From the NCBI RefSeq assembly GCF_023195885.1, contig NZ_JALPKO010000008.1, positions 1-64,000 of the forward strand: a stretch of 64,000 nt of DNA. Direction: 5' to 3'. The translations under genes and the position numbers were made by a program. The notes below the pieces were generated by a model that ran no database searches, was not told the DNA's origin, and worked only from the letters and a program-made list of their open reading frames with translations. This stretch comes from Methylonatrum kenyense (GTDB lineage: Bacteria > Pseudomonadota > Gammaproteobacteria > Nitrococcales > Aquisalimonadaceae). Shown here piece by piece: positions 7,240 through 47,737 of this stretch; within the stretch, counting starts at the first letter, position 1; each line of letters starts with the position of its first letter.

Positions 7240-7249
7240 TTCTGGCGAG

Positions 7250-7327
7250 TTTTAAGTGTTAGGTTTTACGTTTTACGAGTAACCGGAACCCCAAGCTTTC
7301 CTAAAACCTAAAACGTTAAACATAAAA
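7250..7327. repeat. Heptad-arm element C
   Basis: Four heptads, TTTTAAG, TGTTAGG, TTTTACG and TTTTACG (7250-7277), a 22-bp core, then four inverted heptads, CCTAAAA, CCTAAAA, CGTTAAA and CATAAAA (7300-7327). It lies between the convergent uvrA and mdh genes and directly abuts the mdh terminator, so its T-rich complement supplies the U-tract for that terminator. Confidence 0.82.
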
Positions 7328-7330
7328 CGA

Positions 7331-8341: not shown

Positions 8342-8553
8342 AATCTAACTCCTTGTCAGGATGTGAGCAGCCGGGCGTTTCCGTACACCGGGAGCGTCGC
8401 TCGAGGTGCCGACCGGCGCACGGTTCCAGGCCACTTGGCCGGACGCGCAACGCAAATGCTGCGCTGCAGCGGGACGGTAGTTTAGCAGACTGTCGCCAGG
8501 GGGTGCAGCCGCGCGGCGACAAGGCGCAGGCACGAGGATAACTCAGTGTTTCC

Positions 8554-9282
8554 CTAGGGCCTGACCAGGCGGATGCGACTGCCCGGCACCAGCCCCAGTA
8601 CCTGATCGGCACGACCGCAGTTGACCGCGATCTCCACCAGACCGCTGGAATTCCGGTACCAGAATCCCTGACCGCGCGGCACGTCACTGAAGGTCTTCGC
8701 CCGCTCCAGATGCTGCTCGTCGATGGCAATGACTGCCTGGTCCGACAGCATCTCGGCCCGGATCCCGGTCCAGCCGTTACCATAACCATCGATATAGATG
8801 ATGCGTGGCGTATCGTCAGCCCAGCCCCGTTCGGGAAACCGAACCGGCTCGAGGCCGCTCCGGTTCAGCCCTGTCTGGGTTATTTTCGCCGCCCAGCGGG
8901 CGAAATGGTCACGCGCATGAAACGTCGGCGCGACCTCTTCGTCAGCGGTCGGCAAAGGCGCGCAGAGGACGTCGTCACTGCGCCTGGCAACAAATTCCAG
9001 CAGCCCGTTGTCCGGACCGATAAACAGCCGGCCGTCCGCTTCCAGCGCCAATGCCGCCCTGTCACTGCCAACCCCCGGGTCCACCACGGCAATGACGGTG
9101 CAACGAACCGGCAAGCTGCGGCAGACAGGCTCAAGCAGGTAGGCGGCCAGATCCGGCGCAAACGGGGGCGCATCGTGCATCAGGTCCACCACAGGCTGCG
9201 CCGGTGCCAGGTGATGCAGGGCTGCCCGCAGTTGGCCGAGATAAGGGCCGCTGGCTGTGAAATCGGTGAATAAGGCGAACAT
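8554..9282 (-). CDS. SAM hydroxide adenosyltransferase / SAM hydrolase (DUF62)
   Basis: A 242-residue DUF62 enzyme of the fluorinase/chlorinase superfamily that typically cleaves S-adenosylmethionine to adenosine and methionine with water. Family motifs in order are LFTDF near the N-terminus, DPGVG, GPDNGLL, ARDHFA, YIDGYGNGWTG and NSSGLVEIAVNCG. The family residue after GNxxT is usually Asn; here it is Gly. The start ATG 9282 fits the conserved N-terminus, but only 8 bp separate it from the TTTTAGG array of element D and no good ribosome-binding site is visible. Its cellular role is unknown. Confidence 0.9.
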   Translation of the reverse strand: MFALFTDFTASGPYLGQLRAALHHLAPAQPVVDLMHDAPPFAPDLAAYLLEPVCRSLPVRCTVIAVVDPGVGSDRAALALEADGRLFIGPDNGLLEFVARRSDDVLCAPLPTADEEVAPTFHARDHFARWAAKITQTGLNRSGLEPVRFPERGWADDTPRIIYIDGYGNGWTGIRAEMLSDQAVIAIDEQHLERAKTFSDVPRGQGFWYRNSSGLVEIAVNCGRADQVLGLVPGSRIRLVRP

Positions 9283-9290
9283 GGGATTCG

Positions 9291-9412
9291 TTTTAGGTTT
9301 TAGGTTTTAGGTTTTAGGTTTTAGGTTTTAGGTTTTAGGTTTTAGGTTGGGAGCTACGCAGGTTCTCGACGTTCATGCCTGTAACGTAAAACGTAAAACG
9401 TTACACATAAAA
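9291..9412. repeat. Heptad-arm element D with eight perfect TTTTAGG units
   Basis: The left arm is a perfect tandem of eight TTTTAGG units (9291-9346). After a 38-bp core the right arm has CGTAAAA, CGTAAAA, CGTTACA and CATAAAA (9385-9412), and another CATAAAA lies at 9418. It lies between the SAM hydrolase start codon and the rplQ terminator. The perfect left array suggests recent slippage expansion. Confidence 0.88.
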
Positions 9413-9440
9413 CGCCCCATAAAACGGCTTACGGAAACAA

Positions 9441-9466
9441 AAAAACCGGGCGAAAGCCCGGTTTTT
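9441..9466 (-). terminator. Terminator of the alpha operon after rplQ
   Basis: A perfect 11-bp stem (AAAAACCGGGC with GCCCGGTTTTT) closed by a GAAA tetraloop, 21 bp past the rplQ stop codon. It is symmetric with a T-run on both strands, so it could act both ways. Confidence 0.92.
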
Positions 9467-9487: not shown

Positions 9488-9892
9488 TTACTCCGCCGTC
9501 GCCTCTTCCGGGGCCGGCTCCGTCACCGTTGCCTCCGGCCGATCGACCAGTTCGACAAACGCCATCGGCGCGTTGTCCCCGGGGCGGAAGCCGCACTTGA
9601 GGATACGCAGATAACCACCGGGGCGAGCCTTGTAGCGTGGTCCAAGCTCGGCAAACAGCTTGCCGACCGCAGCCTTGTCGCGCAGGCGCGAGAAGGCGAG
9701 ACGCCGCTTGGACACGGTGTCTTCCTTGGCCAGGGTGATCAGCGGCTCGGCAACCCGACGCAGTTCCTTGGCCTTCGGCAAGGTCGTCTTGATTGCCTCG
9801 TGCTCAATCAAGCTGGACGTCATGTTGCGGAACATGGCCGTACGATGGCTGCTGTTACGGTTCAGCTTTCGACCGGATTTACGATGACGCAT
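9488..9892 (-). CDS. rplQ: 50S ribosomal protein L17
   Basis: Large-subunit protein near the peptide exit tunnel. The basic N-terminus [17 protein letters not shown] is diagnostic. At 134 residues it is slightly longer than the E. coli protein because of an acidic, Ala/Glu-rich C-terminal tail. It is the last gene of the alpha operon, 49 bp after rpoA, and is followed by a strong terminator. Confidence 0.98.
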
Positions 9893-41895: not shown

Positions 41896-41914
41896 TGGTG
41901 GAGGGGGGAGGATT
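41896..41914 (-). repeat. Copy 1 of the tRNA-Tyr 19-nt 3' end
   Basis: Identical at all 19 positions to the 3' end of tRNA-Tyr (42075-42093). It is 179 bp downstream of the gene end. The flanks differ from the tRNA outside the 19 nt. Confidence 0.92.
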
Positions 41915-41946
41915 ACTCCGCGCCTCCGGCGCTACGCCCTTCGGGT

Positions 41947-42011
41947 CGCAGTCGCTGCGCTCCTGCGTTGTGATCCGCTTTGCGGATCGCTCGAACCTCT
42001 CTCGGTTCTCA
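41947..42011 (-). repeat. Spacer direct repeat, copy 1 (65 bp)
   Basis: 65 bp identical to 41763-41827. With flanking sequence it forms a line of about six short hairpins from 41920 to 42027, including GCGCC/GGCGC, GATCCGC/GCGGATC, GAACC/GGTTC and CCTCCC/GGGAGG. Confidence 0.92.
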
Positions 42012-42074
42012 TCCTCCCCCTGGGAGGCTCCGGCTGTCGCCTTCAGTCATTGCTGGCGCCCTGCCGATCAATTC

Positions 42075-47179: not shown

Positions 47180-47737
47180 ATGCCTGAGTCAAGCTATCGG
47201 GTCTCATCCCGGTCCGTTCGTTCGTGGTCGATTCCCGCCTTGTTTCTCTGCAGCCTCCTGATCACCGGCTGTATTGGCGGTGGAGGCGGAGGAAGCAGTT
47301 CCGGGAGCAGTGACAGTGGCACATCCAGCAGTAGCGACGGCGGCACTACCGCCAGTAGTGATGACAGTGGCACCAGCAGCAGTGATGACAGCGGCGGCAC
47401 CAGCAGCAGTGATGACAGCGGCACCAGCAGCAGTGATGGAACATCGTCCGGCAGCGGCACTGCCGTCTCCGGAAACTCCATCGAGTTTTCCTGGGAACCT
47501 CCGCACGAGCGCCAGAATGATCAACGCCTCTACACCCACGAAATCGAGGGTCACGAACTGGTGTACCGTCGCCACGACGAATCCGACTATTCCGGCAGTG
47601 TGTTCGAAGAAGAGAATTTTTACGGAACGACCGTTGAGGGCCTGAGCTCCGGCACTTACCATTTCGCCGTCAGGACCAAGGACAGCGACGGTCGCTGGAG
47701 CCCCTACTCAGAGGAACTCGCTGTCGACGTCAACTGA
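47180..47737 (+). CDS. Low-complexity lipoprotein with fibronectin type III-like domain
   Basis: A 185-residue secreted lipoprotein. The signal ends LLITGC, lipidation Cys at residue 31. Then come a poly-Gly run and a Ser/Asp/Gly/Thr linker (to about residue 97), followed by one fibronectin type III-like domain (SIEFSWEPP near its start, TYHFAVRTKDSDGRWSPYSEE near its end). AAGGAG lies 11 nt before the ATG. No PEP-CTERM-like C-terminus is seen, so it is not an obvious exosortase substrate. Confidence 0.8.
   Translation: MPESSYRVSSRSVRSWSIPALFLCSLLITGCIGGGGGGSSSGSSDSGTSSSSDGGTTASSDDSGTSSSDDSGGTSSSDDSGTSSSDGTSSGSGTAVSGNSIEFSWEPPHERQNDQRLYTHEIEGHELVYRRHDESDYSGSVFEEENFYGTTVEGLSSGTYHFAVRTKDSDGRWSPYSEELAVDVN
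47342..47437 (+). repeat. Tandem 24/27-bp repeats in the lipoprotein linker
   Basis: About four units, each containing AGCAGTGATGACAGC or a close variant and differing by whole codons (24 or 27 bp). The frame is kept, so the Ser/Asp linker can grow or shrink without breaking the gene. Confidence 0.8.

Follow-up and report, generated by a model that had tools for sequence, protein, structure and literature searches.

Reading the heptad array upstream of a Methylonatrum SAM hydrolase gene as one arm of a vertically inherited, slippage-prone element of gene 3' ends

We analyzed a 64,000-nucleotide stretch of Methylonatrum kenyense DNA (NZ_JALPKO010000008.1, positions 1 to 64,000; here, the window), in which a tandem heptad array lies beside the start codon of a minus-strand gene. 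Based on Pfam matches over cut-off to SAM_HAT_N (E 1.1e-36, 126.2 bits) and SAM_HAT_C (E 8.9e-22, 77.7 bits), we identify the product of this gene as SAM hydroxide adenosyltransferase (SAM hydrolase). The gene upstream is presumably rplQ; this name, as well as uvrA, mdh, argH, and erpA below, is a putative assignment from sequence. The relevant features of the window are the following:

2 to 95, unstranded: third inverted heptad element, with arms 40 bp apart (unit scans)
2284 to 2475, unstranded: variant class B element, with a TTTTCAG/TGTTCAG arm at 2284 to 2326 and a CTGAAAA/CTGAACA arm at 2436 to 2475 (TRF and unit scans)
7249 to 7328, unstranded: second inverted heptad element, in the gap between uvrA and mdh, which are convergent (unit scans)
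8554 to 9282, minus strand: SAM hydrolase, without a Shine-Dalgarno (SD) motif (ORF and Pfam)
9290 to 9348, plus strand: T-arm, (GTTTTAG)8.4, which is (CCTAAAA)8 on the SAM hydrolase coding strand (TRF, 100% matches; eight perfect units)
9349 to 9379, unstranded: inter-arm spacer, alignable with the orthologous spacer of contig C119 of the sister species G014 (alignment)
9380 to 9414, minus strand: A-arm, made up of degenerate NTAAAAC units (TGTAACGTAAAACGTAAAACGTTACACATAAAAC) in the orientation opposite to that of the T-arm (TRF and unit scans)
9441 to 9466, minus strand: predicted intrinsic terminator of the upstream (rplQ) operon, adjoining the A-arm
9488 to 9892, minus strand: rplQ, the upstream gene (ORF)

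The array ranks best among the perfect short-period arrays that TRF detects in the window, with a period of 7 and 8.4 copies. As described in an earlier, sequence-only reading, it contains eight exact TTTTAGG units, which follow each other without gaps from 9291 to 9346. The leader ends, on the coding strand, in (CCTAAAA)8-CGAATCCC-ATG, with the ATG at 9282, and the 7 to 8 bp between array and ATG agree with the 8 bp of that reading. Its proposal that the array replaces the ribosome-binding site is also borne out, in that this leader lacks an SD motif, while the SAM hydrolase leaders of four genomes from other genera have GGAG/GAGG-type motifs and no heptad. A sigma-70-like promoter was not detected in the vicinity of the array, and none of the five Rfam matches in the window is close to it. 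A 21-base pattern of the array had 15 overlapping matches at three places in the M. kenyense genome (G000), and the same pattern read backward had none. The array is not solitary: together with a second arm, it forms an inverted pair in the rplQ-SAM hydrolase gap, in which GTTTTAN units are followed by NTAAAAC units. This second, degenerate arm had been overlooked, as had the inverted pairs at 2 to 95 and 7249 to 7328 and the variant at 2284 to 2475. We also observed an RtT RNA (RF00391) between tRNA genes at 41896 to 42033, and a 24-base tandem repeat array at 47311 to 47438, apparently within a low-complexity coding stretch.

Genome-wide patterns and scans support that the inverted layout is a property of the genome rather than of one locus. 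In G000, GTTTTANGTTTTANGTTTT had 37 overlapping matches, compared to none for the backward-read pattern. GTTTTAN{8,38}TAAAAC, which is its own complement and hence gives equal counts on both strands, had 60 matches per strand, compared to 2 for the backward control and 5 for the opposite arm order, TAAAACN{8,38}GTTTTA. Scanning the window together with 20 evenly spaced stretches of 20 kb each (464 kb in all) at a score of 14 yielded 13 arms, i.e., six fixed-order pairs, split evenly between the window and the 400-kb sample, and one unpaired, chance-like match; the reversed control yielded 1. A unit-free scan for period 7 added two class B pairs (window 2284/2436 and L141 7385/7431); this loose scan gave 18 arms for period 6 and 16 for period 7, and only arms read by eye were counted. 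Elements of the form (GTTTTAN)n-spacer-(NTAAAAC)n are spread over the genome of M. kenyense and that of the sister species, and a third species (G013) shares the layout but builds it from different units.

We then considered the genomic context of 37 arrays in G000, which comprise loci chosen by GTTTTAN patterns, two sample stretches, and the window, and which under-count other unit classes. Of these, 31 were paired and none lay inside a called gene, with gene boundaries taken from a simple codon-usage caller rather than annotation. Twenty-two lay between tandem genes, 11 between convergent genes, and 1 between divergent genes, while the context of 3 was unknown; among 134 sampled background gaps of 60 to 300 bp, 84 were tandem, 24 convergent, and 26 divergent. 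Compared to these gaps, elements are depleted between divergent genes (p 0.006) and enriched between convergent genes (p 0.03). They nearly fill short intergenic gaps, often to approximately 10 to 20 bp from a stop codon, and most are closer to stops than to starts. A promoter role was rejected on the grounds that no promoter was found and that the elements avoid divergent gaps. Long arrays, defined as at least four consecutive identical units, were found at six places in G000: four separate convergent genes, one adjoins a contig end, and one, that of the window, is in a leader. They are therefore not concentrated where a promoter, leader, or frame could change, and those between convergent genes cannot shift a promoter or leader there.

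The array had also been expected to be prone to copy change, and five alleles from the genus bear this out. The SAM hydrolase leader has 8 perfect units in G000, 9 on contig C119 of G014 and at least 9 on its contig C56, which begins within the array, and 11 and 12 on contigs C109 and C206, respectively, of G013, in which the unit is CCTGAAA. The two G013 contigs come from one MAG and have identical flanks, and their difference may be an assembly error. We note that G014, also a MAG, carries two different SAM hydrolase alleles on two contigs (L195 1 to 42 and L054 72 to 131) and may mix two populations. Apart from one lost heptad, G000 and C119 align well in both the spacer and the far arm, and long leader arrays are present in every allele of the genus with the leader read; the match in the fourth congener, G015, is a C-terminal fragment with the leader outside it. 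Other orthologous long arrays also differ in copy number between G000 and G014 (argH, 8 versus 7; erpA, 7 versus 4; the C27 site, 5 versus 6). These data support copy-number slippage well.

They do not support the further claim of the sequence-only reading, namely that the array is a dedicated phase-variation switch in which slippage raises or lowers SAM hydrolase expression. That such a switch can exist in principle is known from the ATCTTTC heptads of hmw1A in Haemophilus influenzae, which also slip near a start and where more heptads lower expression (PMC8262952). The differences between alleles, including the 11 and 12 units within one MAG, and the long arrays in all SAM hydrolase alleles read fit this idea. 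However, the hmw1A array is a single locus between two promoters with tested adhesin phase variation (PMC8262952), whereas the array here is an arm of a genus-wide inverted element located at gene 3' ends, has no promoter-like site, and precedes a gene that looks housekeeping rather than encoding a surface factor; moreover, long arrays are more common between convergent genes (four of six) and vary in copy number there as well. The argument from helical spacing is also weakened, as three units amount to 21 bp, or two helical turns, and copy changes thus have no simple effect on phase. We consider a phase switch improbable, and of the sequence-only reading, replacement of the ribosome-binding site and copy change are supported while the dedicated switch is not.

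Alternatively, A-rich heptads in the leader could bind S1, a cold-shock protein, or a Csr-type protein and so replace the SD, as MacGregor proposed for the TAACTGA heptads that lie just before starts in marine Beggiatoaceae (PMC4679880). In agreement with this, the SAM hydrolase leader has no SD, and its RNA is predicted (z -2.6) to fold such that the far arm pairs with CCUAAAA units close to the AUG. SD motifs were present in 4 of 12 element leaders compared to 100 of 186 background leaders, but this difference is not significant (p 0.23), and we rejected SD loss as a feature of element leaders. In addition, most elements are closer to stops, and 11 of the 34 of known context are convergent. 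The TAACTGA repeats share with the SAM hydrolase array an intergenic location directly before starts that lack a ribosome-binding site, but they are direct (169 direct sets and one inverted), have one fixed unit, and precede starts rather than following gene ends (PMC4679880); both the unit and the inverted order of the elements here differ. We consider a translational leader array unlikely, though less so than a phase switch.

The folding of the elements bears on a possible role at gene ends. Of 30 elements, 28 were predicted to fold better than base shuffles, with z -2.9 or lower. Within class A, however, own arms paired worse than arms swapped between elements (-14.4 versus -16.7 kcal/mol), and the compensatory stem that we sought was not found; class A thus does not preserve a finely tuned stem. 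The swap test covers elements picked for GTTTTA-like arms and is blind to co-change between classes. That spacers of approximately 300 to 380 bp are tolerated also argues against a tight hairpin. Just outside the arms that face gene ends, the 35-mers included 12 strong hairpins (-12 kcal/mol or lower) among 36, compared to 77 among 573 for control windows at 3' ends (p 0.003). This count was made post hoc, and the whole distribution differs weakly from the controls (p 0.08).

Comparison within the genus supports that the elements are inherited in place. Seventeen of the 37 G000 elements match G014 loci on both flanks with 77 to 94% DNA identity; the 21 G014 loci compared were nearly all chosen for heptads, and the 17 matches are thus no measure of loss. 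The uvrA-mdh element is kept in G014 with an insertion of approximately 270 bp in its spacer. This insertion (L054 2030 to 2320) is MITE-like, has CCTAGGGAAACRCTGATT ends, and is absent from the corresponding spacer in the window; a sequence similar to these ends lies at 8535 to 8560, beside the SAM hydrolase stop. Heptads follow argH in all four congeners, with differing letters, and are absent there from the three genomes of other genera that were read. The units are GTTTTAG in G000 and G014 and, by eye, GTGTTCG-like/GTGTTNG-like in G015; G013 has (GTTCCAG)6, opposite an arm of the GTTC type. Downstream of erpA, the element is present in G000 and G014 and absent from G013 and four other-genus genomes; a site beside erpA has class B in G000 where G014 has class A. 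In sum, the elements lie between genes near stops in a fixed arm order, are retained by descent at orthologous sites, and grow or shrink by entire heptads.

Among 54 genomes of the order, the strict pattern was found only in G000 and G014, and GTTTCANGTTTCANGTTTCA had 32 matches in G013 and none in the other three congeners. Four GTTTNAN units in a row occurred in 16 of 369 genomes of the class; we observed that such arrays in other gammaproteobacteria form inverted pairs in G398 (L200 to L206) and are mostly single and long in G350/G246/G110, G224, G211, and G327. In G013, both argH arms are of the GTTC kind, although its other long arrays are GTTTCAG. It is conceivable, but doubtful, that what is inherited is the place, the period of 7, and the inverted symmetry, with the unit letters turning over in both arms jointly. 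Such joint turnover would need either arm-to-arm copying, e.g., in hairpin-templated repair, or selection that acts on a periodic and self-complementary form rather than on a motif. A telomere-like interpretation of TTTTAGG was discarded, since GTTTTAC, GTTTAAN, and GTTTCAG units fill an equal role.

The elements could also be selfish and MITE-like, with the arms as terminal inverted repeats of a non-autonomous element that lacks a host function and uses post-stop gaps as safe landing sites. Class B copies share both arms and interior (81 to 84% over 145 to 158 bp), and three related copies with TTTTCAG/TGTTCAG arms lie within 3 kb (L169 3552 to 3709, 4780 to 4924, and 5981 to 6145); G013 copies share an interior of approximately 75 bp at several places (81 to 84%). 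Because of these shared interiors, whole-element copying appears to occur as well. By eye, however, class A interiors look unrelated at most loci, with a GTCAACAGC-like loop recurring in a few, element positions are stable between species, and no mover was found: the Y1/RAYT family (PF01797) had one weak match in G000 and none in G013 and G014, on which basis RAYT-driven REP/BIME elements were also rejected. We regard a selfish origin as rather unlikely, and vertical inheritance of a slippage-prone heptad element of gene 3' ends as the best reading.

In titles and abstracts of open-licence literature, we found no description of these elements. They are best read, by analogy, as an A/T-rich counterpart to the GGGAATC heptads that Xanthomonas carries in inverted form. 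The (GGGANTN)n repeats of Xanthomonas, as well as the GGGGA(T/C)T repeats of Nostoc, are degenerate and intergenic, 70 cases among 186 repeats in Xcc are inverted convergent pairs, and units lie on the coding strand just past stops and on the non-coding strand just before starts, the same gene side as here; a phase-variation-like role was rated unlikely by the authors (PMC4692102). The elements here likewise consist of degenerate 7-bp units in intergenic, convergently inverted pairs near ORF ends. By contrast, their units are A/T-rich, pairing occurs at most sites, and species have many of these sites in common, while prominent Xanthomonas repeats lie at different genes in Xcc and Xac (PMC4692102). 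GTTTTAN has no run of three Gs; we therefore rejected a quadruplex, which cannot be the common denominator with the G-rich Xanthomonas unit. Multicopy tandem heptads are also described for Geobacter metallireducens, which has 49 GGACCGG elements and a class 3 (MTYCTGA) mostly in opposite-strand pairs; these have other units, lie partly inside genes, and were read as global-regulator sites or RNA elements (PMC2700814). What sets the elements here apart from such known heptads is their A/T-rich unit, a pairing that is almost universal, and a stable position combined with unit turnover.

We suggest that the SAM hydrolase array is the start-codon-side arm, enlarged by slippage, of an element in the rplQ-SAM hydrolase gap. 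That it is an inverted heptad element shaped by slippage is very probable. If functional, the elements may act as symmetric 3'-end elements that place serial T-tracts and a hairpin-capable body behind stops and terminators; this part is tentative, and less probable than not. The A-rich arm before the SAM hydrolase gene would be a by-product turned leader, with translation proceeding without SD pairing, and its copy number would drift by slipped-strand mispairing, which may tune translation a little rather than serve as a selected on/off switch. The long arrays in all SAM hydrolase alleles read could reflect selection at this gene, which counts against the by-product view. Taken as a whole, an enlarged arm of an inverted element with a 3'-end function has about an even chance of being correct.

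Heptads between genes are found repeatedly in unrelated bacteria, and each kind has been explained singly, by quadruplexes, translation, global regulators, or phase switches. That A/T-rich elements agree with these in gene side and inverted layout, and stay in place with a changing unit, suggests that period and symmetry matter more than letters, and the four genomes at useful distances make this genus suited to testing that idea. A perfect heptad array beside a start codon need not mean a phase switch.
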